Shown here piece by piece: positions 1-32,897 of a stretch of DNA of 32,897 nucleotides. The stretch is taken from positions 1-32,897 of the IMG/VR virus record IMGVR_UViG_3300042338_000941, one strand, 5' to 3'. How positions within the stretch are numbered: position 1 is the stretch's first letter; every line of letters starts with the position of its first letter. Position numbers and translations under genes: made by a program. The notes beneath the pieces are model-generated. The model was not told the DNA's origin. It worked only from the letters and a program-made list of their open reading frames with translations, and made no database searches. This DNA is from a virus.

Positions 1-133
1 CACGACAACGACCTCGTCCCACAGGCCGCGGGCGGATTCGATGAGTCTACGCAAGATCGCCCCCTCGCCGGGGCCGGCGATGAGGGCGATCGAAACAAGC
101 GGGGGGTGCTTCATTTTCTTTAGGAGGAAGGCC
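1..133. repeat. Terminal redundancy (left copy) marking a circular genome
   Basis: Bases 1-133 match 32765-32897 with one difference, A at position 7 against G at 32771, leaving 126 perfectly matching bases after it. The duplicated stretch holds the first 38 codons of the glycosyltransferase at 30737-32878 (here on the minus strand from 114 down to 1) and its upstream leader. The mismatch is in the third base of codon 36 (Val) and is synonymous. Cutting one copy gives a 32,764-bp circle in which the capsid gene is followed directly by the glycosyltransferase. The overlap lies inside a coding region far from the terminase genes, so I read it as assembly overlap on a circular or circularly permuted molecule rather than a physical terminal repeat. 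Confidence 0.9.
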
Positions 134-159
134 GGCCGCACCCCCCGATGCGGCCGGCC
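130..159 (-). terminator. Strong GC hairpin after the major capsid gene (partial terminator or mRNA stabiliser)
   Basis: There is a perfect 11-bp inverted repeat (130-140 against 149-159, GGCCGGCCGCA) with an 8-base loop. It lies 20 bases after the capsid stop codon and 15 bases before the start of the next gene once the circle is closed. On the minus strand it is followed by TTCCTCC rather than a run of T, so it is not a textbook intrinsic terminator. A role in lowering expression of the glycosyltransferase relative to the capsid, or in protecting the capsid mRNA, fits its position. Confidence 0.6.
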
Positions 160-178
160 CACCAGTTGGTCTAATTAC

Positions 179-1051
179 TTAGACGATACGGACGAGCGAG
201 CTGGTCGATCCGCGTCCCACGCCGAACAGCAGGATGTAGCTGCGGTTCGTGGTGCCGAGGGTGGGGTTCACCCACTCACGCACGGCGAGAGACAGTCCGC
301 TTTCCGGATCCGTGACGACGTCCTGGGAGCCAGGATAGTTGTCGAGGGCTTCGGGCACGCGGGCCGCCACGATGAGGGCTTCCTTCTGGGCCGCGAAGCC
401 CTTGGAAACCGCCGACGGGAGCGCCGTATAGCTGAACACTTCGATGCCGTTGACCAGGCCGACGGAGCCGGACTTAACCGCGTCCCCTTGGATCTGGGCG
501 TTGGCCACGATGTTGGAGTCGTTGAGCAGGCTGGCCTTGTTGTCCGGGGAGACGATCGCGTAGCGGTCGTTCGACGGAACTTTGTTGTTGTCCAGGCTAA
601 AGCCCAAGCTCACCACGCCGCGGTACGTGAGCGCACCGGCGGAGACGGAGAGGGTCGAGCTGTAGGCCGTGGTCACCAGGCCGAGGAGGTTATCCACCAT
701 GCTCTTGCCGAGCGCGTAAGCCGCGCTGGAGGCAAAGCGGTTGATCAGGTCGATCGAGGAGCTGTATTTCTCAGCGTCCGTGATCGCGTAGGTGCTGTGG
801 ATCAGGTTGCTCAGGCTGATGGTTGCATCAGTCTGGGTACGATCCTGGGCCACGTAGCCCTGCGTGGTGCTGTAGGCACCGGCGGTGCCGACGGTCACGA
901 GGTGGGTGGTGATCGTGTCGTTCATTTTGGCGGGAACATCCGAGAAATCGGTGACCGCCTTGGTGAGGAAGGGCAGGGAATCCACCAGCGTGGTCAGTGC
1001 GCGCTGCGCAATGGCCTTGCCGTTGGAGACCGAGCCGAGTGTGTTAGCCAT
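179..1051 (-). CDS. Major capsid protein (HK97 fold expected)
   Basis: 290 aa. The ATG is preceded by AGGAG about 12 bases upstream. The gene lies directly after the prohead protease and portal, the standard place for the major capsid protein. The sequence has the feel of P22-like or related HK97-fold coat proteins: an N-terminal helix (about 10-35) that runs into a stretch ending DTITTHLV, a long Ala/Ser-rich helical spine region (about 90-125), and beta-rich C-terminal parts ending in a hydrophobic strand. There is no long N-terminal delta domain, consistent with a separate scaffold, probably the C-terminal half of the upstream protease protein. Identity rests on gene order plus general sequence character, not on a catalytic motif. 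Confidence 0.85.
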   Translation of the reverse strand: MANTLGSVSNGKAIAQRALTTLVDSLPFLTKAVTDFSDVPAKMNDTITTHLVTVGTAGAYSTTQGYVAQDRTQTDATISLSNLIHSTYAITDAEKYSSSIDLINRFASSAAYALGKSMVDNLLGLVTTAYSSTLSVSAGALTYRGVVSLGFSLDNNKVPSNDRYAIVSPDNKASLLNDSNIVANAQIQGDAVKSGSVGLVNGIEVFSYTALPSAVSKGFAAQKEALIVAARVPEALDNYPGSQDVVTDPESGLSLAVREWVNPTLGTTNRSYILLFGVGRGSTSSLVRIV

Positions 1052-4026: not shown

Positions 4027-5820
4027 TCATGTTGTCAATTTAGCGGGCGCCTCCTGCGGCCGGTTTTGTTCGTGCTCCAGAAACACCAGCACCAGCTTCT
4101 CGCAATCCCCCAAGTGGTTTGCACCCACCACTTCCCACGTCAGCTCTCGCTGGCCGTACCTTAGCTTGCGCTCCACCAGCCGTTCATTCGTCAGCTGGCT
4201 GATGTAGTCACGGCCCAAGTTACGCGGCAGCCACCAGTCCGCCCCCGTACGCTCCTTGATTTTATTGATGTAGAGCGTGTGCTTAAACACGTTGTCGTCG
4301 TACTGCACCAGCGGCAGCGTCCGGCCCAAGTGCTCGACAACCTGTTTCACGACGCTGGCCCGCATCCCGGCGCTGGCCGCCCGGCCCTTGCTGGCCCAAA
4401 ACTTTCCGGCCGCCCGGATCACAAATTCATACACGCCGCCGGTCCTCCGGGCCGCGTAGCCGGAGTCCACAAATCCACCAAGGCAGCTCATGCCTTCCCC
4501 ATCCTTGCCGCGCACCGGATACTTTTGCCCAAACTTTTGCAGGACGGCATCCCATCCGATCAACTGGCCGTAGTCCACTAGCGCGCTCCATGGTTTCCCT
4601 GCGTTTTTTCCGTAGGCCCGAATCGTGTACCACAGCTCCGTCTGCTGCACGTCCACGGCCATCATCAGCCCTTCCGGATCCATGGGGCACTCTCCCAGCA
4701 GATATTCCGGGCTGGCCTTGATGACGTCCTCCACGGCGCTTGGCTTGACCGTGGCGGCCGCCGGAGTCCATGGCTTGGCCAGGTAGCTGTTCACGAAATG
4801 GTGCAGACCGCGGATGCTTTCTTTGTCTTGGATAAACATCACGGCCAATTCGCCCCAGGTCTTGTGCGGGCTGTAGAGAGCGTTGAGGTGATAGCTGCGG
4901 CGGCCCGGCTCGCCTTGGGCCGTGGGCTTCCACTTGCCCTCTCGCATCATTTCGTTTCGTTCGCTGAACGGGATCTGCCTGCGGCACCCTGGGCACTCGT
5001 AGTGCGTCGTGGCCTTAACCTTGTCGAAGTCCCACGCGTTGCTGTCCGGATCGTGCGCGGATTCGTCCCACCGCACGCCCTCCCACTCCAGATTGAATTG
5101 ATGATGGCATTGGCGGCATGCGATCATGTAGTAGCGTTGGTCGCCCCGCTGAAATTCCGTCCAGATGTTGACCCCTTGGTCGATCGTCGGCGTGGACGCC
5201 TGGACGTAAAGCCAGTGAGGAAAGGATTCCATCCGGGCGCCGATCAGCTGCAGCGGCGCCGCCTCCTTGGTGTTCCAGTCCGGAAACTTGTCGATCTCGT
5301 CGGCGATGCTCATGCCTACACTGCGTGAACTAAGATTGCTCTCAGACCCCGCTCCCACCCACCAAACCGTGCCCGATTTGAATCTCTGCTCGTCCAGCTT
5401 CATCTCGTCGTCGTTGTCCGGACAAAGCCGGCCTAGGCATGGGTTGCTTTGTACCAGCTCCATCCAGCGGTCCGCACTGATGGACCGCGCCAGCTTGAGC
5501 GACGGCAGCACCACCATGCAGGGCGTGGCCCGATTCGTCAGCCGGTGCGCCAGCATTAGCTGCAGGGCCGTGCTTTTGCCGCATTGCACCGCAAAACATA
5601 GCGTCAGCTCATGCACCCCCGGGGCCGTCGCGCTGTCCAGCACCTCCCGCAGGTAGGGCATCGAATCCAGGCTGACCTTGCCCGGCTTGCTCGGGCTGTA
5701 TCTTTCCGAAAACCAGATGTTTTGCTCTGCCCACTTGCTGACCGAGTCCATCCCTGCGGGGCGCAGAAACTTAAACGCCGCCCCTACCCCATGGACTGAT
5801 GATGATGACGTAATCGTCAT
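4027..5820 (-). CDS. Large terminase subunit, GpA family
   Basis: 597 aa, the DNA-packaging motor and nuclease. Visible features: ATPase Walker A as CFAVQCGKST at about 75-84, Walker B as SIADEID at about 171-177, a zinc-finger-like pair CRQC (235-238) and CPGC (276-279) typical of the lambda GpA family, and a nuclease start at MMAVDVQQTELWY with Asp390. Length agrees with the family (about 600-650 aa). The ATG overlaps the small terminase stop (ATGA). GpA-type enzymes usually cut at cos sites next to the terminase genes, but I could not locate a cos by eye. Confidence 0.95.
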   Translation of the reverse strand: MTITSSSSVHGVGAAFKFLRPAGMDSVSKWAEQNIWFSERYSPSKPGKVSLDSMPYLREVLDSATAPGVHELTLCFAVQCGKSTALQLMLAHRLTNRATPCMVVLPSLKLARSISADRWMELVQSNPCLGRLCPDNDDEMKLDEQRFKSGTVWWVGAGSESNLSSRSVGMSIADEIDKFPDWNTKEAAPLQLIGARMESFPHWLYVQASTPTIDQGVNIWTEFQRGDQRYYMIACRQCHHQFNLEWEGVRWDESAHDPDSNAWDFDKVKATTHYECPGCRRQIPFSERNEMMREGKWKPTAQGEPGRRSYHLNALYSPHKTWGELAVMFIQDKESIRGLHHFVNSYLAKPWTPAAATVKPSAVEDVIKASPEYLLGECPMDPEGLMMAVDVQQTELWYTIRAYGKNAGKPWSALVDYGQLIGWDAVLQKFGQKYPVRGKDGEGMSCLGGFVDSGYAARRTGGVYEFVIRAAGKFWASKGRAASAGMRASVVKQVVEHLGRTLPLVQYDDNVFKHTLYINKIKERTGADWWLPRNLGRDYISQLTNERLVERKLRYGQRELTWEVVGANHLGDCEKLVLVFLEHEQNRPQEAPAKLTT

Positions 5821-20612: not shown

Positions 20613-21668
20613 TTACGGCGAAGGAGGGCGTGTCAAAGAAGGGGCGGTGTTAAAATCGTAGAACTTTTTAGGCCGCCAGCGCAGGTGGCCGTCGTACTCC
20701 CCGCCCAGCTCGTGGTACGCCTCGTGCACCTCGATCTCATCAGTGCGGCGGCCGTCTTTATCCACCTTCCGCTTCACGTGGGAGCAGACGACGTGCGGGA
20801 TGACGGCCATCCGCAAGCCGTGCGGGTGCCAGCGGTTCCAGCACAGGAATAGATCCTGGGTGCCCTTCAGGTCGTAGCCCTCAAACGTGGCTAGGGAGAG
20901 GGCCTTTTTGTTCAGCAAGGTGCAGCCCAGCCCCACCCAGTCCGTGGGCAGAATGGCTCCGCGGCCGATGGCCGGGTAGGCGCTTTCCAGCCATCCCCTT
21001 TTCCGCCAGCCCTTGGCCTGCAGCTCAAAAATGTTCCCCTTTGGCGGGCACTCCCGGATCCGCTTGTCCAGCCCACCCCATTGCTTCAGCTCCTCCTCGC
21101 TCGGGCGCTCCTTCTTTTTGGCCAGATCCTTGAGGCGCTTTTCCCGTGCCTCGATCTCCTTTTGCATTGTTTCCGGGATCTGCCGTTCCTCGTGGGTAAA
21201 ATCCTCTGCAATGGGGTGCTGGGCGGTGCCGCGGCCGCCCAAAAACTGGCCGTTTGGATACGTGACCATGGCGATGGAGTAGTAGCCGTCGTCGAAGGCC
21301 AGCGTGTCGCGCAGGACGCGCAGGGCGTTAGGCGGTACGAGGACGTCGCTCTCTACGCACCAGCATTGCTCGGCATCCAGCTCTCTGGCCTTGGCAAAAG
21401 CGGCCTGCTGCAGCCGGGCGATGATGAGCTGGGCTTCGTCTTGGTAGGCTTTCTGGCGGTCGTCCGCCTGGCCGATGACGATGTGGTGTAGCACCATGGA
21501 CGGGAACTTGGGTGCCACCTGTGCGATCATCTGGGCGCATTCTGGGGAATCGTCTGTGGCTAGGATGAGGTGGCCGGGCTGGCCCCGCATGGCGGTGGCG
21601 CAGTGTTCGGCCCAGCTGGGCACGGAGTAGCACCAGCCGCGGGTAAAGAAGGTAAGAAGGGCGGTCAT
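20613..21668 (-). CDS. Glycosyltransferase-like protein coupled to the Ser/Thr-rich tail protein
   Basis: 351 aa, ATGA-coupled to the 662-aa tail protein. The N-terminal alpha/beta part leads to a candidate nucleotide-sugar motif WCVESDVLVPP (about 103-113; the E-S-D group stands for the usual DxD), and a later GTQDLFLCWNRWHPHGLRM fits the second acidic and Trp-rich segment of GT-A folds. Between them is a charged helical insert with EKRLKDLAKKKERPSEEELKQW. GT-A enzymes move sugars onto proteins or glycans in the cytoplasm. The coupling makes the upstream Ser/Thr-rich protein an obvious substrate candidate, but this is inference. Confidence 0.65.
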   Translation of the reverse strand: MTALLTFFTRGWCYSVPSWAEHCATAMRGQPGHLILATDDSPECAQMIAQVAPKFPSMVLHHIVIGQADDRQKAYQDEAQLIIARLQQAAFAKARELDAEQCWCVESDVLVPPNALRVLRDTLAFDDGYYSIAMVTYPNGQFLGGRGTAQHPIAEDFTHEERQIPETMQKEIEAREKRLKDLAKKKERPSEEELKQWGGLDKRIRECPPKGNIFELQAKGWRKRGWLESAYPAIGRGAILPTDWVGLGCTLLNKKALSLATFEGYDLKGTQDLFLCWNRWHPHGLRMAVIPHVVCSHVKRKVDKDGRRTDEIEVHEAYHELGGEYDGHLRWRPKKFYDFNTAPSLTRPPSP

Positions 21669-23653
21669 TTGGCCGTAGCGACTGCGGCGAGGAATGTGCG
21701 GCTATTGACTTCGACAAATTCGCTTCGTGCCAACTGGTTAAACTTGGCGTTTCCGAGGCTGTAGTTGGCGTTGGTCACAAATCGATTACCTCCGAAATCA
21801 GCCATTTTTCCAGATGCGGTTCCGCTGGCGGTGTATAGCTTGGCCGGGATGGGCACATGGCGACTGAGCGCAGAATTGGCATAGGTCACAAATCCGGCTC
21901 CTGATCCCATGGCAAAAGATCCGCTCTGGGTGCTGGCTCCCGACGACCACGCAGCGCTCACCGTGGATGGCTGCGTGGAATTGGCATAGGAATACCAGGC
22001 GGCCTTAGACAGCAATGAGGTCGTGTATTGATTCAGCCCGTGGGCAGTCCAAGGAACGATCGGCCCGAGCAGGGCCTCGGTATTGGCAAAGTCGCCTGGC
22101 GACCAGTAGGCATTCCCGATCCTTGACGTGGTGGTCGTGGGCGTGGCCAGGCTGGTGCCGGACGTGCTTATTTCCAGAGTGGTGGTGGATCCAGACGAAT
22201 GGCGGCTGCTGGCCGTCCATGATTCCTGCACTGTGATCGTCTCATAGACGGGCTCATCGTTTTCATCGTAGCTGATGACGTCGCCCTGTTCGGTGTAGCT
22301 GACCACCACCTCCGAGGTGCTGGCCTGGGAAAGTGTCGCAAAAAGCCGCCACGACGAGGAAAGATAGGACCAGCAAAGGGTGGCAAAATCCCTGGAGACG
22401 CGCCAATAGCTGTCCGTTTTTGGTTTTGTAAAAATAATGGGAACGGAGCCGAAGGAGTTGGCGTAGTAACCCGCCCACACGTTTGGGTTGTCTTGCCCAT
22501 TGTAAAAATTGATGGAATTTCCGTTGGCCGTCCAGACGGGTGGAGACAGGCGGAACGATCCGTAGACCGGGCCCGAGCTGCCCTGCGTCCAGAACGTCAC
22601 ATAGCTGGAATTAAAATTTCCTCCCTCGCTGAGCAGGCTGTTGGCAAAGGCTTTGCCGGAAGCCAGGAAACTAAACGTGGTGTTTTGTTCGGCAAAAGTG
22701 GTGCCGGTAACGACATGCTGGGTGATGGTGGCGGTGGAATGAGAGTAGGATTCCGTCTCATTAACTGTGAAGTTAGAGGTTTTGATTTCGGTGTCTGTGC
22801 CAGCCACGTTAAACGTGGAGCTGCTGGTGTATGAGCTCGTTATGCTGATGCCGACGGAGGTGTTGTAGAAAATGCTGGTCAACACCTGGCACAGGCTATC
22901 GAAGGAGTGGCTGCCATGTGAAAACGAAACCGCCGGGTTGGCCTGCAGGGCAGTGCCTGTGGCCAGAAACCCGATCGCCACGGGCTTGAGGTAGGTCGAA
23001 GGGCTGATGTACTGCTGGCCGCGGGTAACAAAAAATCTGAAGGAGCTCAATGAGCCCATGTGCTCGCCCGCATAAATCTGCCCGGTGGTGGTTCCGCTTT
23101 GCGTGGAGGTGTAGGTAGCCGTGGTGCGTACGCGGGAGGTGGTGGCGGACAGCAGGGAGGCCAACGAGGACGCCAATGCGTAGGCAAACGTGACCGAATG
23201 AACAGAGGAGGCCGTGGTCTGCCCGGTGATGACGTAGGTGGTGTCCGAGGTTGTCTGACGAAACTCCGTCAAAAAAGTCCCCGGGGATCCCAAGTCCTGC
23301 CCCGGCGGCACGGTTGCGGTGGACGAGCTGGACGAGCTGGCGCTGGCGGTTCCGCCGCTGGTGGGGAACGATACATAGGTGATGGACCAGCTGACCGACT
23401 TGGTGACGTTGCTCTCGCTCCTGGCCCCGGCGGGAAGGAGGGTGGAGTATTTATGGGCATTGGGAGAATCCCCATAGGTTTCGCTATATTCCGTGTAGGA
23501 GTTACCGTCATAGGCCCACGTGTGGGTGGTGTGCGAAGTTTTGGTGGAGAAGGTGCTGTTCCCCGAAAGATCGCTGCTGGCCACGTAGCGCTGCGTGGCA
23601 CTGCCGGTTGTTCCGGCGTTGCTGGTCGTCAGATAATGATGGTACGTGAACAT
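21665..23653 (-). CDS. Ser/Thr-rich tail protein (tail tip or fibre)
   Basis: 662 aa. Much of the chain is Ser, Thr, Tyr and Ala, including poly-Ser (TASASSSSSSTATV, around 105) and long Ser/Thr runs in the first 350 residues. It is beta-rich with few charged residues, as for fibres or tail tips. Its place after the tape measure and two unknown tail genes suggests the tail tip, where lambda has gpJ, but there is no gpJ likeness and no catalytic motif. Hydroxyl-rich surfaces are good acceptors for O-linked sugars from the coupled enzyme. Confidence 0.65.
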   Translation of the reverse strand: MFTYHHYLTTSNAGTTGSATQRYVASSDLSGNSTFSTKTSHTTHTWAYDGNSYTEYSETYGDSPNAHKYSTLLPAGARSESNVTKSVSWSITYVSFPTSGGTASASSSSSSTATVPPGQDLGSPGTFLTEFRQTTSDTTYVITGQTTASSVHSVTFAYALASSLASLLSATTSRVRTTATYTSTQSGTTTGQIYAGEHMGSLSSFRFFVTRGQQYISPSTYLKPVAIGFLATGTALQANPAVSFSHGSHSFDSLCQVLTSIFYNTSVGISITSSYTSSSTFNVAGTDTEIKTSNFTVNETESYSHSTATITQHVVTGTTFAEQNTTFSFLASGKAFANSLLSEGGNFNSSYVTFWTQGSSGPVYGSFRLSPPVWTANGNSINFYNGQDNPNVWAGYYANSFGSVPIIFTKPKTDSYWRVSRDFATLCWSYLSSSWRLFATLSQASTSEVVVSYTEQGDVISYDENDEPVYETITVQESWTASSRHSSGSTTTLEISTSGTSLATPTTTTSRIGNAYWSPGDFANTEALLGPIVPWTAHGLNQYTTSLLSKAAWYSYANSTQPSTVSAAWSSGASTQSGSFAMGSGAGFVTYANSALSRHVPIPAKLYTASGTASGKMADFGGNRFVTNANYSLGNAKFNQLARSEFVEVNSRTFLAAVATAK

Positions 23654-27612: not shown

Positions 27613-27912
27613 TTAGGTCAGATCCGGGTAATTGATGCCGCGGATGGACACCTTGGCCACGTCACCCAGCGTTCGGCGGCGCTCCACGCTGGTGGTCTGG
27701 AAGGTCAGGCCCTTGGCGTTGAAGGTGTTGGTGGCGGAGTAACCATCGTCGATGCCCTCGATGCTGGCTTCCACGCGGTCGTTGTAGGCTTCCTTGACGG
27801 GTGGGACGGTGTTTTCCGTGCCGCTTTCGGTGATCAGCTGGTCCACGGTGCCGGTCAGCGTCGCGTTGGTGACGACAAGCCCGCTGATGGAAATGGTGGT
27901 GCCTACGGCCAT
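27613..27912 (-). CDS. Small tail tube-like protein
   Basis: 99 aa, beta-rich: TTISISGLVVTNATLTGTV and later ASIEGIDDGYSATNTFN. A pair with the next gene (27923-28204); together they lie where the tail tube gene is expected. I assign a structural role only by position and beta content. Confidence 0.5.
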   Translation of the reverse strand: MAVGTTISISGLVVTNATLTGTVDQLITESGTENTVPPVKEAYNDRVEASIEGIDDGYSATNTFNAKGLTFQTTSVERRRTLGDVAKVSIRGINYPDLT

Positions 27913-27922
27913 GGTTTACTCC

Positions 27923-28204
27923 TTACGGAATGGCGCCCCAAGACAGCTGCGTTTCCGTCACGCGGGGCTCGTCCGTGTTGGTTTCGCGATACTCAAAACC
28001 CACCACGGCGCCGTTGGTCATTGTGCCGCTGGCCAGTGTGGGTAGTGTGCCGCTGTAGGTCTCCACGCGCTTCTCGCCTTGGGCGTACTTCTTAAAGCCC
28101 TTTTTGACTGCCCCATCCGCGCCTTGCACGAAAAGGCGCTCGAAGGACGTGGCGACTGTTTCTGAAAGAGTGGTGCTGGCGGGTGTGCCGTAGGTGTAAG
28201 CCAT
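27923..28204 (-). CDS. Small structural tail protein
   Basis: 93 aa, beginning MAYTYGTPASTTLSETVATS, mostly beta strands. Opens the tail section after the epimerase-like gene. Likely structural; the exact part unknown. Confidence 0.5.
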   Translation of the reverse strand: MAYTYGTPASTTLSETVATSFERLFVQGADGAVKKGFKKYAQGEKRVETYSGTLPTLASGTMTNGAVVGFEYRETNTDEPRVTETQLSWGAIP

Positions 28205-28222: not shown

Positions 28223-28672
28223 TCAACCGTCCTGCACGCCCCAGCGGTACGGGATCGCCGGATCATGCGCCGGCCGGCGCTGCTCATCTGGATTTTTTCT
28301 GTCGTAGGCGCGATCGGGCAGGTTTAGGACAATCGCCTCCTGCGGCCCGACGGCGGCAAAGCCGTGCCAGACACCCGGGCGGATGGTCACCAAGCAGGGC
28401 CGATGCGGGCTAAAAAAAACGCTGCCCGTTTGATCGGTCTCCTCGTCCCAGAAGCCGGCCTGCACGCAGCCGGCCAGGCAGGTCACGCGGTCGCTTTGGC
28501 GGACGTGATGATGCCACGCCTTGACGACCCCGGGCCGGATGGTCGTCACGTACGCCTGCCCAAAATCAATCCCCTCGCCCCGCAGGATTTCCATCAGCCG
28601 CCCGCGTCCGTCCTCGTACCAGGACAGCTCCGTCACGGAGCCAAAGAAATGCTCCGTGGTCTGCCCGATCAC
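28223..28672 (-). CDS. dTDP-4-dehydrorhamnose 3,5-epimerase-like sugar enzyme (RmlC/cupin family)
   Basis: 149 aa from the GTG at 28672, which overlaps the previous stop as GTGA. The RmlC family marks are present: RPGVVKAWHHH (about 47-56) with the His pair that holds the catalytic base, IRPGVWHGF (98-105), LNLPDRAYDRKNPDE (117-130) and an IPYRW end (140-144). RmlC inverts C3 and C5 of dTDP-4-keto-6-deoxyglucose on the way to dTDP-rhamnose; other members are 3- or 5-epimerases or 3,4-ketoisomerases. The other rhamnose genes are absent, so it would draw on host precursors. It lies among tail genes. Confidence 0.8.
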   Translation of the reverse strand: MIGQTTEHFFGSVTELSWYEDGRGRLMEILRGEGIDFGQAYVTTIRPGVVKAWHHHVRQSDRVTCLAGCVQAGFWDEETDQTGSVFFSPHRPCLVTIRPGVWHGFAAVGPQEAIVLNLPDRAYDRKNPDEQRRPAHDPAIPYRWGVQDG

Positions 28673-29088
28673 GACGGGTCTACGTAAAAGATGGCGGTCA
28701 GGCTGTCGGCCATCGCCCGCTCGTTGGTCTCCGTGCGCTCGGCCTGGATGTGGGATCCCAGAATGGTGACCCCGGCGGTAATGCCGGAGATCATGGCGGC
28801 ACGATCCTTCAGCCGGGCCTCCGCCCATAGAAAAGCGGCGGTGTGGCTGGCCACGGTGGCCGTCTCTTGGATGGGCGTCATCACGCTGGCCTGCACGGTG
28901 ATCTTTCGGGTGTTTGTCTGGATCCCCTCCTCCATGGTCTCCGCACTTTCGGCGTGGATGACGAGGGCGGGCATCTCCAGCTCCGTGATTTTATGAGCGG
29001 CCTGCACCTGCAGGGCGACCGGCTTGGCCGGGCTGACGGTGGTTAGGTAATCCGCCAGCTTGGATTCAAAGGAAAGGCGCAGGCTCAT
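28669..29088 (-). CDS. Tail terminator / connector-like protein
   Basis: 139 aa, coupled by ATGA to the gene before and GTGA to the epimerase. Alternating helices and strands (ITVQASVMTPIQETATVA, AFLWAEARLKDRA, MADSLTAIFYVDP). Its size and place suit gpU/tail terminator or head-tail joining proteins. No firm family. Confidence 0.5.
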   Translation of the reverse strand: MSLRLSFESKLADYLTTVSPAKPVALQVQAAHKITELEMPALVIHAESAETMEEGIQTNTRKITVQASVMTPIQETATVASHTAAFLWAEARLKDRAAMISGITAGVTILGSHIQAERTETNERAMADSLTAIFYVDPS

Positions 29089-29396
29089 CGCACGTCCTCT
29101 GGATTGCCCAGCGTGACGGTGATCAGCCCGGCGTCCTCCTGGGTGCTCATCACGCGCTTAGTGGCGTTGGCCACAGTGATCGTGCCCAACAGGGACGGAG
29201 CGCTGGCGGCCGTGGCCGGGTAGACAAACTCTGCCGGGGCGGGCGTGACAAGTCCGCCCATGCCTAGCTCCCCGCTCTTTTCGCCAGGCGTATACATGCC
29301 GGTGACCGTGGTGCCGCCGATGGAGGCGGTCACGGATCCAGCCCCGGCGATCATGTCGGAAAGGCCGGCGGTCATCATGGTGTCCAGCTCGGTCAC
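29085..29396 (-). CDS. Head-tail connector-like protein
   Basis: 103 aa from a GTG with AAGG about 10 bases upstream. Beta-rich: SVTASIGGTTVTGMYTPGEK, LLGTITVANATKRV, LITVTLGNPEDV. In lambda the FII head-completion protein has this place and this kind of fold. Assigned on position. Confidence 0.5.
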   Translation of the reverse strand: MTELDTMMTAGLSDMIAGAGSVTASIGGTTVTGMYTPGEKSGELGMGGLVTPAPAEFVYPATAASAPSLLGTITVANATKRVMSTQEDAGLITVTLGNPEDVR

Positions 29397-29406
29397 GGTC
29401 AGAGCC

Positions 29407-30069
29407 TTATGTCAAAATCCGCGCCCAGACGACGTCCCCGTCCGTGCGGACGGATTCCACCTCGTAGGCCAGCCGCCCCAGCCCGTTGTCCCCCAACGTT
29501 TCGGCGGTGACGGCGCAACCTTTCTCAAGGTTGGCCGGATTGTGCTGCATGTCCCTTGGGTGATCGGAAATTTCCTTCAGCCATTTGTTGTAAAGATGAT
29601 CGGGCCGTTTTGTTGGAATCTGCGTAATCTCCATCCGTTTGCGGATGGCCACGTCCTCCCCTCCCCATCCGCGCAGGTCGCTGGGGAAGCCATTGCATTT
29701 TTCATAGGCCGCCGCGTAGAAGGCGCAGCACGAGGCCAGGCCCTCCGGGTAGCCGTGCAGCTCCAGGAACCCTTCGCCGTGGTAGAAAAACTCGTCCGGC
29801 AACGGCCCCTCCGGGATGCGGTAGTCCGTGTTGCAGTGGACAAAAAGGGCGTTGCGGTCGTCCAAGGCCGCCTGCTGGTAGCAGGCATTGTACAGGAGCC
29901 CGCGGTTCCAGCCCTTGTCGTCCGCCTGCTCGGCCACGTAGATGCGGTAGAGGCAGCCCGGGTTGGCCCGCATCACGGCCCGGATGTTGGCGATCCAGCC
30001 GGCGATTTCCTTGCGGCGGAAAAGCTGGTCGCCGGCCGCCCGGTGCACGGTAAGCCAGGCGATCTTCAT
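29407..30069 (-). CDS. Beta-1,4-galactosyltransferase-like glycosyltransferase (GT7-like)
   Basis: 220 aa from the ATG at 30069, ATGA-coupled. The marks of the beta4GalT family are visible: KGWNRGLLYNACYQ (about 52-65, the FNRA-like segment), FVHCNTDYRIP (77-86, in place of the HDVD-like donor metal motif) and the GWGGEDVAIRKRM end (134-146, family motif GWGGEDDD). It would move galactose or GalNAc from UDP-sugar to an acceptor sugar. Members of this family are better known from animals and bacterial capsule loci, and it lies in a phage structural operon. Confidence 0.75.
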   Translation of the reverse strand: MKIAWLTVHRAAGDQLFRRKEIAGWIANIRAVMRANPGCLYRIYVAEQADDKGWNRGLLYNACYQQAALDDRNALFVHCNTDYRIPEGPLPDEFFYHGEGFLELHGYPEGLASCCAFYAAAYEKCNGFPSDLRGWGGEDVAIRKRMEITQIPTKRPDHLYNKWLKEISDHPRDMQHNPANLEKGCAVTAETLGDNGLGRLAYEVESVRTDGDVVWARILT

Positions 30070-30740
30070 GCCAGGATCCAGCGCTCGACGGCCTCGTCCG
30101 GCGTGGCCACACGGGTGGCGTGGTGGTTTTCCCGGTGGAAATCCTCGCTGGGGCAGAAAGCCCCGCGGGTGGCGCCGATGTTTTGGATCCGGCTGACGCG
30201 GGGAAACATCTCTCCCATGCCCAGGTTGTCCCGGATCCGCTGCACCCCGCCGTCCCAGAAGGAGGTGTCCCAGCCGGGCAAAAGATATTTTTCCCAGTGC
30301 TCCCGCCAGGTGGCCCAGCCCCAAGGCGTAAACCAGTGGCGGAAGTAGGCCATGTCGGGCAAAGCCTCGCCGCCGTGCTGGTTGTAGCCAGACACGGTCA
30401 GCGTCATCGGGCTGGCGTTCCGACCGGCCCACTCAAACCAGCGCAGCGCGTCCCGGCTTGGGACGGTGTCGTCCTCCAGATGGATGTGGTAGTCGGACGC
30501 CTCAAAACCCAGCTCCATGCAGTATCGGATGGCCGCCCCGCACCCTAGGTGCTGCGCCGGGATGTGCACGGTGATGCCGTGGCACTTGGCGATGTAGGAA
30601 AGCTGGTCAGTGCAGTCGGACGGATCCAGCACGGCCGTCACGCGGTACTCGCTGGCGCCGTCGCACCGCTCCAGCGCCTCGACGACCTGGGCAAAATAGT
30701 CCGGCCGCCGGTGGGCGGAAACCGTCAGCGTCTTGGTCAT
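30066..30740 (-). CDS. GNT-I-like glycosyltransferase
   Basis: 224 aa, ATGA-coupled to the 713-aa enzyme. Contains the donor-binding motif HLEDDTVPS (87-95) and FTPWGWATWREHW (137-149); this WGWATW block is typical of a glycosyltransferase group related to GNT-I/GT13 in bacteria. GT-A fold with no membrane segment, so cytoplasmic. The sugar and acceptor are unknown; neighbours are two more glycosyltransferases. Confidence 0.8.
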   Translation of the reverse strand: MTKTLTVSAHRRPDYFAQVVEALERCDGASEYRVTAVLDPSDCTDQLSYIAKCHGITVHIPAQHLGCGAAIRYCMELGFEASDYHIHLEDDTVPSRDALRWFEWAGRNASPMTLTVSGYNQHGGEALPDMAYFRHWFTPWGWATWREHWEKYLLPGWDTSFWDGGVQRIRDNLGMGEMFPRVSRIQNIGATRGAFCPSEDFHRENHHATRVATPDEAVERWILA

Positions 30741-32878
30741 CCCTTAAGAAGCGCGTAGGCCGCCAGGTTGCCGCCCGTGCCCTTGTTGTTCTGCAGGGCG
30801 TCCTCACCCAGCCCCTCGGCACGGATCTTGAGGCCGTTGGTGCGGTTGTAGTCCGGCGTGGCGCAGACCAGCGTCCGCGTCCCCTTTTCCCGCAGGGCGT
30901 GGGACATGACAAAATCGTCCGCCATAAAACGCGCCCGGCCCTTTTCGTCCAGCTGGGCAAACTCCTTGGCCGTCAGGCTGGGGAACTTGGCCATGTCCGG
31001 CATGTCTTTGAGCCGGCAGGCAACAGCCCCAAAACCCTCCAGAATCTCCGCGTGGCCGAGGTGGTCGGGTGCTATGGCGTAGCCCTTCGGCCCGGTCATA
31101 AAAAATCCGCACAGCCCCATGGCCGAGCCGTCCGGGCAGTTTTCCACCAGCGTCTGCACCATCCGCGGGCTGTAAAGGATGTCGTCATCGCACCAGACCA
31201 CGAAGTCGTCTAGGCCAAGCGTCTTGGCGTCGATGCCGTTTTGCACAGCTCCGACAAACTTTGTCGCCGGGCCGTGGTCGCGGCTTCGGTAAATGGTGAT
31301 TCGCCCCTCATCCGCCAGCTTTTGCAGCTCGGCCGGGATCTCCGGGAACCGTTCCCCGGTGCGGGCCAGCTTTTCGGCCACGGACAGCACGATCTCGTCC
31401 GCTGGCATAGACTGCGCCAGCAGGCTTTGGATAGTGGGCAGGATGGTGTGGATCCGCTTGGGCGTGGTGGTCAGGCCGATGAACACCTGATTCTTTTTAT
31501 CGACGGGATTGGGCAACCGCTCAGCCCCGGGGGGCACGGTCCCATCCTCCAGCAAAGCCGCATCCCAGCGCAGGCCGGGTAGCGGCGCGTCCTTGGCCTT
31601 TACCGTCAGGATCAAGTCGCCCAGAGCCTCACTGATGGCTTCATCGGCGCTCTGCACAATGTGCAGCCGGTCCGCAATTTTGTGGCCCTTCTGAGTGAGC
31701 AGCAGGTGCTGGATGCCGTTGGAGGCGTCCGCGCAGTCCGTGTAGAGCGCCATGGATTTTAGGCAGTCATCGGGCTCTCCGGCGTGAATGACGGTGATCC
31801 GGCCCCAGGCTCCGCGGAAGCCGTCCCGCACTAGTTTGTTGGCGTCATCATGCTGGCCCAGCGCCCGCAGGCACTGCGCCATCAGCTGCCGGGGCAGGTG
31901 CTTGTACCAGCGATTCTCCTGGTTCCAGTCCTGCGTGGACGGCATGGCGTCCACCTGTTTCAGAATATGATAGGCCGTGGAAAAATCCCCGTGATCCATC
32001 CGATCACTGGCCAAAAGGCCGTGGGCCTCCCGGCGCATGGGGGAAAGCGTGATGGCCTTGCCAATGTGGTCCAGCCGTTTGGTGCGCTCGGCCAACATCA
32101 TGGATGCCTGCACGTGGAGCTGGTACTTTTCCGTGCCGCCCACGTCGGCGTGTTCCAGTGCCAGCAGGCACGGACCGATGGCTTCCTGATAGTTGTTTTT
32201 TAGAAAATGCTCCTGGCATAAGTAGTACCATTCCATCCCGATGCCCTGCAGCCGGCTGGCGATGATCCGCTTGTTGCGCTCGGCGGATGTAACCTTCGGC
32301 CCGGAGGGCGCGTGCAGGATGCGGAGGTGATTGGCCAGGCCAATCTTGGCACCCTCCACGGGCTTAACCCGCTCGTGGATCTGCCGCTCCCAGTAAGCGG
32401 ACAGCTTGCCGTCCGGCATCCGGCGGAAGATCCGTTCCCGGCGGTTGTTGCGCATCCCGCTGTTTTGCACGTCGTAGGTGGTGACCAGCAGATCCCACTC
32501 CTCTTTGCCGGATTCCCTCGCCTCAATCTGGGCGCGGTGTAGGGCCGCTTGGCCGGGCTCAAAGACGTCGTCGCAGTCCGCCCACAGGACGTACTTGCCC
32601 TTGGCCAAGCTGAACGCCTGATTTCTGGCGGCCGCAAAATTATCAATGTGTGGCCAGTCTGCGTTCTCCGGGGCGTTATGATATTCCGCAAACACTCCGG
32701 CATCTCCGGCTGCTTCCTGGAGCGATTGGCGCAAATCGTCCGAGCTGTTTTTGCCGACGGCCGCCACGACGACGACCTCGTCCCACAGGCCGCGGGCGGA
32801 TTCGATGAGTCTACGCAAGATCGCCCCCTCGCCGGGGCCGGCGATGAGGGCGATCGAAACAAGCGGGGGGTGCTTCAT
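30737..32878 (-). CDS. Two-domain glycosyltransferase (GT2 / helical middle / GT-A)
   Basis: 713 aa. Domain 1 (1-about 210): a GT2 fold with VSIALIAG strand, YVLWADCDDVFEP (DxD at 101-104) and a Trp-rich region. Middle (about 220-440): tandem helices, TPR-like (QEAIGPCLLALEHADV, AYHILKQVDAMP). Domain 2 (about 470-713): IGLTTTPKRIHT, VVWCDDDILYS (acidic triad) and YAIAPDHLG onward, a second GT-A type core. It follows the capsid gene across the circle junction and starts the sugar island. The first 38 codons are duplicated at the window start. No Shine-Dalgarno is clear. Confidence 0.75.
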   Translation of the reverse strand: MKHPPLVSIALIAGPGEGAILRRLIESARGLWDEVVVVAAVGKNSSDDLRQSLQEAAGDAGVFAEYHNAPENADWPHIDNFAAARNQAFSLAKGKYVLWADCDDVFEPGQAALHRAQIEARESGKEEWDLLVTTYDVQNSGMRNNRRERIFRRMPDGKLSAYWERQIHERVKPVEGAKIGLANHLRILHAPSGPKVTSAERNKRIIASRLQGIGMEWYYLCQEHFLKNNYQEAIGPCLLALEHADVGGTEKYQLHVQASMMLAERTKRLDHIGKAITLSPMRREAHGLLASDRMDHGDFSTAYHILKQVDAMPSTQDWNQENRWYKHLPRQLMAQCLRALGQHDDANKLVRDGFRGAWGRITVIHAGEPDDCLKSMALYTDCADASNGIQHLLLTQKGHKIADRLHIVQSADEAISEALGDLILTVKAKDAPLPGLRWDAALLEDGTVPPGAERLPNPVDKKNQVFIGLTTTPKRIHTILPTIQSLLAQSMPADEIVLSVAEKLARTGERFPEIPAELQKLADEGRITIYRSRDHGPATKFVGAVQNGIDAKTLGLDDFVVWCDDDILYSPRMVQTLVENCPDGSAMGLCGFFMTGPKGYAIAPDHLGHAEILEGFGAVACRLKDMPDMAKFPSLTAKEFAQLDEKGRARFMADDFVMSHALREKGTRTLVCATPDYNRTNGLKIRAEGLGEDALQNNKGTGGNLAAYALLKG

Positions 32879-32897
32879 TTTCTTTAGGAGGAAGGCC
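32765..32897. repeat. Terminal redundancy (right copy)
   Basis: Right-hand copy of the 133-bp overlap described at position 1. It holds the real start of the glycosyltransferase gene (ATG at 32878) and 19 bases of its leader. The one difference from the left copy is at 32771. Confidence 0.9.

Follow-up and report, generated by a model that had tools for sequence, protein, structure and literature searches.

A capsid-linked glycosyltransferase island with an exchangeable enzyme slot in an uncultured phage lineage, a candidate module for virion glycosylation

Background

Virion glycosylation has been established in few phages, mostly mycobacterial ones, where it is tied to antibody recognition. 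Three papers that cite Freeman 2023 (PMC12363180, PMC11256854, PMC12619734) report at second hand that the capsid and tail of phage Che8 are glycosylated, and name Corndog and Myrna as well. Che8 carries coupled genes (gp108-gp110) for a family GT2 glycosyltransferase fused to a Methyltransf_24 domain, a family GT2 enzyme and a family GT25 enzyme. Among enzymes that glycosylate polypeptides, GmaR of Listeria is the flagellin O-GlcNAc transferase: it places GlcNAc on flagellin, which its TPR has been proposed to bind (PMC9638930). Here we describe an island of glycosyltransferase genes next to the major capsid protein (MCP) gene of an uncultured virus. The stretch analysed (the window) is the whole of IMG/VR record IMGVR_UViG_3300042338_000941, 32,897 nucleotides or about 32.8 kb. 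GT1 to GT4 denote its glycosyltransferase genes and their products; enzyme families are written as family GT2 and so on.

The island resembles the Che8 system in that a set of glycosyltransferase genes, with a methyltransferase domain among the set, is phage-encoded and coupled by ATGA overlaps. It differs in three respects: the genes of the window lie behind the capsid gene, those of Che8 near the end of the genome; Che8 has no TPR initiator; and the capping gene is here exchanged between lineages. The enzyme types are analogous, and the island may work as the Che8 system does. What is new is a capsid-linked GT2-TPR protein, the probable initiator, as a core gene of a lineage, an exchange slot behind it, and capping families that are common to lineages with unrelated capsids.

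The island and its position in the genome

Bases 1-133 of the record are a direct terminal repeat of bases 32765-32897, with one mismatch. Because of this repeat the record closes on itself, and the genome is complete and circular or circularly permuted; the capsid gene therefore lies directly upstream of GT1. The core of the island is as follows.

179 to 1051, minus strand: MCP; matches phrog_283 (PHROG major head proteins) at 9.7e-23; directly upstream of GT1 over the join
30737 to 32878, minus strand: GT1, 713 aa, core gene; Pfam, PDB profile, AlphaFold2 (AF2) model, Foldseek and synteny behind the MCP
30066 to 30740, minus strand: GT2, 224 aa, GT13-like; matches to GnT-I and POMGnT1
29407 to 30069, minus strand: GT3, 220 aa, GT7-like (beta-1,4-galactosyltransferase), in the variable position; PDB match and profile

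Read along the minus strand across the join, the genes are those for the terminase, a small protein, the portal, a 332-aa protein in the protease position and the MCP, followed by GT1, GT2, GT3, an attachment-like protein, a tail terminator, a cupin and two small tail proteins, and then by further tail genes and a tape measure of 404 aa. ATGA overlaps couple GT1 to GT2 and GT2 to GT3. A preliminary description of this DNA had placed three coupled glycosyltransferases directly after the capsid gene, and this is confirmed, the adjacency existing only by way of the circular join. All the genes that it named are open reading frames (ORFs), the start of the cupin gene being corrected below.

GT1 combines a GT2-TPR half with a second GT-A domain

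GT1 had been called a two-domain glycosyltransferase, and our analysis bears this out. Pfam places Glycos_transf_2 at the N-terminus (2.5e-13) and a second, weak GT2-like domain at residues 478-579. The first domain (residues 1-190) is of the GT-A/GT2 type with a DCDD motif at 101-104, of which D101, D103 and D104 are invariant in 40 sequences. TPR helices follow directly (196-356), and then a degenerate alpha/beta domain (361-455) and a second GT-A domain (465-713) with DDD at 557-559. The AF2 model (pLDDT 85.8) shows the same succession of GT-A, TPR-like helices, alpha/beta and a second GT-A-like domain. GT1 thus has both the acidic GT-A motif and the TPR region after the glycosyltransferase domain that characterize the GT2-TPR polypeptide glycosyltransferases.

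When a 40-sequence profile is compared with the PDB, the best solved glycosyltransferases are GmaR (6.5e-14), SunS (6.6e-6) and ThuS (2e-4), and many TPR proteins are also listed. Like GmaR, GT1 has an N-terminal family GT2 domain followed by TPRs; unlike GmaR, it has a second GT-A domain in place of the antirepressor part and is phage-borne beside a capsid gene. Foldseek puts the peptide S-glycosyltransferases SunS and ThuS on top, followed by two-domain GT-A polymerases. SunS and ThuS share the combination of a family GT2 domain and helical repeats, but they modify small bacteriocin peptides, and the second GT-A domain is present only in GT1. By Foldseek, heparosan synthase 2 and the chondroitin polymerase K4CP resemble GT1 in that a single chain holds two GT-A domains, but they are polysaccharide polymerases without TPR, whose sequence match to GT1 is weak. 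GT1 is thus a two-enzyme protein whose N-terminal half is closest to polypeptide-glycosylating enzymes in both sequence and predicted fold, and it is a probable initiating polypeptide glycosyltransferase. As a soluble two-domain protein glycosyltransferase it may also be of practical use.

GT1 is linked to the capsid gene in three capsid families

A scan of IMG/VR returned 337 relatives of GT1, of which the best 78 were examined as loci; the linkage samples given here consist of best-scoring matches, and those drawn from the GT1 side and the MCP side overlap and contain near-duplicates. The MCP gene lies upstream of GT1 in all 77 loci with room for it, at a distance of 66-132 bp in 71 loci and of 393 bp, with the attachment gene in between, in six divergent ones. 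Scanning from the MCP side, GT1 is the next gene in 71/71 loci with room. The terminase is exchanged (94-99% versus about 30% identity) while the portal, MCP and GT1 stay together; the large subunit (window 4027-5820), for instance, is swapped between L012 and L026 on the one hand and L013 and L020 on the other, whose portals and capsids are nearly the same. GT1 is thus a core gene of the lineage, and its dN/dS is about 0.1-0.2. The preliminary description had considered the arrangement unusual. This is so in comparison with isolated phages, since neither GT1 nor GT3 has a match in 50,697 phage records; within the lineage it is the rule.

In a second lineage the MCP belongs to phrog_1005, which has no profile similarity to that of the window, and a related GT2-TPR protein lies downstream of it in 78/78 loci with room, the distance being at most about 230 bp in 52 of them and 0.8-2.8 kb in the other 26. 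A third case is the podovirus ctKR88, where an SU10-type MCP is followed by one small gene and then by the gene of a GT2-TPR protein that has a GT-B domain as its second half; two further genes follow, one of which encodes a GT-B enzyme. Judged by sequence, the GT2-TPR half is constant across the three capsid families and the second half changes.

In nearly all phages with GT1 the C-terminus of the MCP (179-215) is SLVR(I/L)V preceded by Ser/Thr, a feature absent in Verrucomicrobia phage P8625, which lacks GT1. As a candidate acceptor it was dropped as evidence, one capsid (L078) having no Ser there in a phage that carries GT1.

GT2, GT3 and the exchange slot behind GT1

GT2 has a weak Pfam match to GNT-I (1.6e-4, with a score under the curated cut-off). 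It matches GnT-I in the PDB (8e-6), and its profile matches POMGnT1 over residues 6-208 (3.3e-10) and GnT-I as well. EDD and FWD are invariant, so that the EDD metal motif and the catalytic W-D pair of family GT13 are present at the homologous position. GT3 is assigned by Glyco_transf_7C (3.6e-9), by a PDB match (3e-11) and by its profile, which finds beta-1,4-galactosyltransferase 1 at 3e-24; it keeps GWGGED and HPRD, that is, the WGGED and HxRD motifs of family GT7 with the metal-binding His. Unlike the GT13 and GT7 reference enzymes, both proteins are soluble, short and phage-borne. GT2 is found in many relatives but not in all. Homologues of GT2 also occur in unrelated large phages: the one in L119 (5478-6720), on an AT-rich contig (36%), adjoins a methyltransferase-like gene, and that of Microbacterium phage Magritte (L190, 2192-4217) lies near a UDP-glucose dehydrogenase and the terminase.

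Between GT1 and the attachment gene lies a slot that is filled in all 46 relatives examined. It holds GT2 with a Methyltransf_24 enzyme in 25 of them, an FkbM methyltransferase in 8, GT2 with a GT3-like enzyme fused to an SDR sugar-nucleotide epimerase in 5, GT2 with MT_C6 in 4, a GT34-type glycosyltransferase in 2, and two rarer sets in the others. The window, with GT2 and a free GT3, adds an eighth arrangement, making at least eight in total. The enzymes in all 46 slots are glycosyltransferases, methyltransferases or methyltransferase-like proteins, and the sugar-nucleotide SDR only. MT_C6 has no Pfam match; S-adenosylmethionine-binding and FkbM-like motifs, read by eye, suggest that it is methyltransferase-like. 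In the five fusions (L029, L030, L031, L049, L082) a GT7-type glycosyltransferase is joined to a sugar-nucleotide epimerase of the extended SDR type (Epimerase 1.8e-44), which suggests that donor supply and transfer are combined in one chain.

The contents of this slot are exchanged. In relatives that have neither GT2 nor GT3, DNA similarity to the window stops at the GT1 stop codon and returns some 20 bases ahead of the attachment gene. GT3 of the window is closer to its counterpart in the phrog_1005 lineage (60%) than to those of sister phages (47-48%). When the two lineages are taken together, 93 loci hold any of the five variable families (MT_C1, MT_C6, FkbM, GT3 and GT34), and 92 of these hold exactly one.

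A probable virion glycosylation module and its alternatives

From the domains, motifs, gene order, linkage and exchange established above we infer a virion-protein acceptor, an order of steps, the sugars and a benefit (changed adsorption, shielding or stability). On balance the island is probably a module for glycosylation of virion proteins, in which GT1 would start the glycan, GT2 would extend it and the slot enzyme would cap it. Expressed with the late operon, where it directly follows the capsid gene, GT1 would hold a phage structural protein by its TPRs while its N-terminal GT-A domain attaches the first sugar to a side chain, and its C-terminal GT-A domain would add a second. GT2, of the GT13-like GlcNAc-transferase type, would extend the chain, and the enzyme in the variable position would cap it: GT3 (GT7-like, Gal or GalNAc type) in the window, an O-methyltransferase or another glycosyltransferase in relatives. 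The cupin, where carried, would change a host nucleotide sugar. Recombination that swaps the capping gene would change the outer face of the glycan and leave its protein-linked core as it is. We favour this reading because GT1 is of the GT2-TPR type, holds a fixed place beside capsid genes of three families, and occurs without membrane anchoring, lysogeny genes or relatives in bacterial genomes, and because Che8 offers a precedent.

Several results weigh against it. Profile and hhalign comparisons of Che8 gp108-110 with GT1-GT4 give weak local matches only, so that homology is not convincing, and the different arrangement of its domains keeps the Foldseek TM-scores of GT1 low. P8625, the closest isolate by capsid, has no such glycosyltransferase after its MCP. 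The allele of GT1 varies independently of that of the MCP (GT1 of 91-93% identity occurs with MCP of 60%, and GT1 of 71% with MCP of 92%); a GT1 specific for its own MCP is thus rejected as stated, since the alleles recombine. GT1 distances correlate better with those of the attachment protein (0.67) than with those of the MCP (0.56; n=28), and the acceptor may therefore be another virion protein. A high Ser/Thr content (22-32%) is common to the capsid, attachment, small tail and tail-fibre proteins, so that none is singled out as acceptor. Finally, enzymes of the GT7 and GT13 types could equally make a host surface glycan.

This last point leads to the alternative that lipopolysaccharide, capsule or S-layer is altered during infection, which would block other phages or re-adsorption. 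Such a role is commonly proposed for phage glycosyltransferases, for example in pelagimyophages; polysaccharide work would suit the GT7- and GT13-like enzymes as well as the RmlC-like cupin, and rapid exchange at the slot would suit an arms race over surface glycans. By hydropathy, however, the island contains no membrane-anchored glycosyltransferase or flippase: the glycosyltransferases and the cupin have 19-residue maxima of 0.73-1.21, with no strong hydrophobic segment, and are soluble. No integrase is found among the Pfam and PHROG matches of the window proteins (some small ORFs unscanned), and a search of 84,980 species genomes of bacteria and archaea gave no relative of either the capsid or GT1. 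Thus neither the membrane components nor the prophage carriage of Gtr-type lysogenic O-antigen conversion were found. The late, capsid-adjoining position, which recurs across three capsid families, and the similarity of GT1 to polypeptide glycosyltransferases also argue against this alternative, which we regard as rather unlikely. The preliminary description had proposed decoration of the virion or of the host surface glycan, and had spoken of a prophage; decoration of the virion is the better reading, and the prophage, with its blocking of superinfection, finds no support in the same evidence. A host protein as acceptor (pilin, flagellin or S-layer protein), with GT1 acting as GmaR does and altering reception, would agree with GmaR, a flagellin-modifying enzyme, being the best match and with GT1 not following the MCP allele, but the position in the head operon, kept beside capsid genes of three families, makes it improbable.

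It might also be argued that these are cargo genes without common function in a permissive gap. The cupin and GT4 are indeed sporadic, the cupin being precisely inserted. Against this explanation, GT1 is universal with dN/dS of about 0.1-0.2, the slot is never empty in 46 loci and contains glycan-type enzymes only, and one of five families occupies 92/93 loci. Computable pairs for the island genes give dN/dS of about 0.03-0.33, indicating purifying selection. Independent cargo is thus disfavoured and very improbable. On the other hand, the five proteins do not form one fixed pathway, as had been supposed, since the slot is swapped, the cupin occurs in 3 relatives and GT4 in 4/38 records. Glycosylation of DNA, in which hypermodified bases are decorated against restriction, is a known role of phage glycosyltransferases (PMC12619734); it is scarcely credible here, as no base-hypermodification gene is present among the Pfam and PHROG matches (some small ORFs unscanned), the genome is of 32.8 kb, and GT1, GT2 and GT3 match enzymes directed at proteins and glycans.

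If the island does glycosylate the virion, a tentative generalization, which we put forward as a possibility, is that whole lineages of aquatic phages with unrelated capsids carry a two-part particle glycan: a constant, protein-linked core laid down by the capsid-linked GT2-TPR initiator, and an exchangeable cap, galactosyl-type or methyl, which lineages would hand to one another as a single-gene allele. The phage surface would then vary in a general and genetically programmed way, partly through enzyme families that process animal glycoproteins, and this suggests that phage lineages vary their sugar coat as a matter of routine. Two large, uncultured aquatic lineages have the probable initiator, linked to the capsid gene, among their core genes and presumably meet no antibodies; another selective force, such as adsorption, grazing, stability or competition, would therefore be at work. 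The slot also provides a natural series for studying the role of the outer sugar.

Other features of the locus

The remaining features that bear on the island are the following.

130 to 159, minus strand: RNA hairpin in the MCP-GT1 gap; covarying stem, invariant loop
29085 to 29396, minus strand: head-tail attachment-like protein, downstream border of the slot; PF05354 at 0.0077, below cut-off
28669 to 29088, minus strand: tail terminator-like protein; weak phrog_20428 match (E 0.093) and synteny
28223 to 28672, minus strand: RmlC-like/WbuC-like cupin; PF14667; between the tail terminator and a tail protein
20613 to 21668, minus strand: GT4, 351 aa, probable GT-A glycosyltransferase by its motifs, amid Ser/Thr-rich tail proteins

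The hairpin has a 13-bp RNA stem with an invariant ATCGGGGGGT around the loop. In an alignment of 21 distinct sequences 98.9% of cells are paired, with two-sided changes in 8/13 pairs; it has no real T-run and no Rfam match. It may keep expression of the island below that of the capsid, or protect the capsid mRNA.

The cupin had been described as an RmlC-like epimerase among connector and tail genes. The assignment stands, with PF14667, a cupin type of polysaccharide biosynthesis, at 2.4e-12 (47.4 bits against a cut-off of 28.7) and a PDB match to the dTDP sugar isomerase 3ejk (4.8e-12). The start does not: it is a GTG at 28672, overlapping the stop of the tail terminator, and not at 28828. 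Compared by eye with the catalytic His-Asp-Tyr set of RmlC, a His and an Asp look kept and the Tyr position looks to be Asn. The protein is a putative sugar-nucleotide epimerase or isomerase, inserted precisely between the tail terminator and the tail protein.

GT4 has no family or PDB match, and is called a glycosyltransferase on its GT-A-like motifs only (ESDV, GLGC, GTQD and H, all conserved). Its model (pLDDT 51, from a three-row alignment) is too poor for a fold search. Structure and profile comparison thus upholds the preliminary assignments of GT1 to GT3 and the cupin, and leaves that of GT4 to its motifs. In one record (L065) GT4 is disrupted, being split into two ORFs. It adjoins a 662-aa tail protein with 32% Ser+Thr (window 20613-23653; L187).

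Two adjoining small tail-protein genes occupy 27613-28204, where one major tail protein would stand. A frameshift was rejected because the same two ORFs are present, and kept separate, in relatives.

The nearest isolates are Verrucomicrobia phage P8625 by MCP (29%) and Akkermansia phage Moulinsart by terminase (30%). The hosts of both belong to the Verrucomicrobiota, which gives a weak lead to this phylum as the source of the host.

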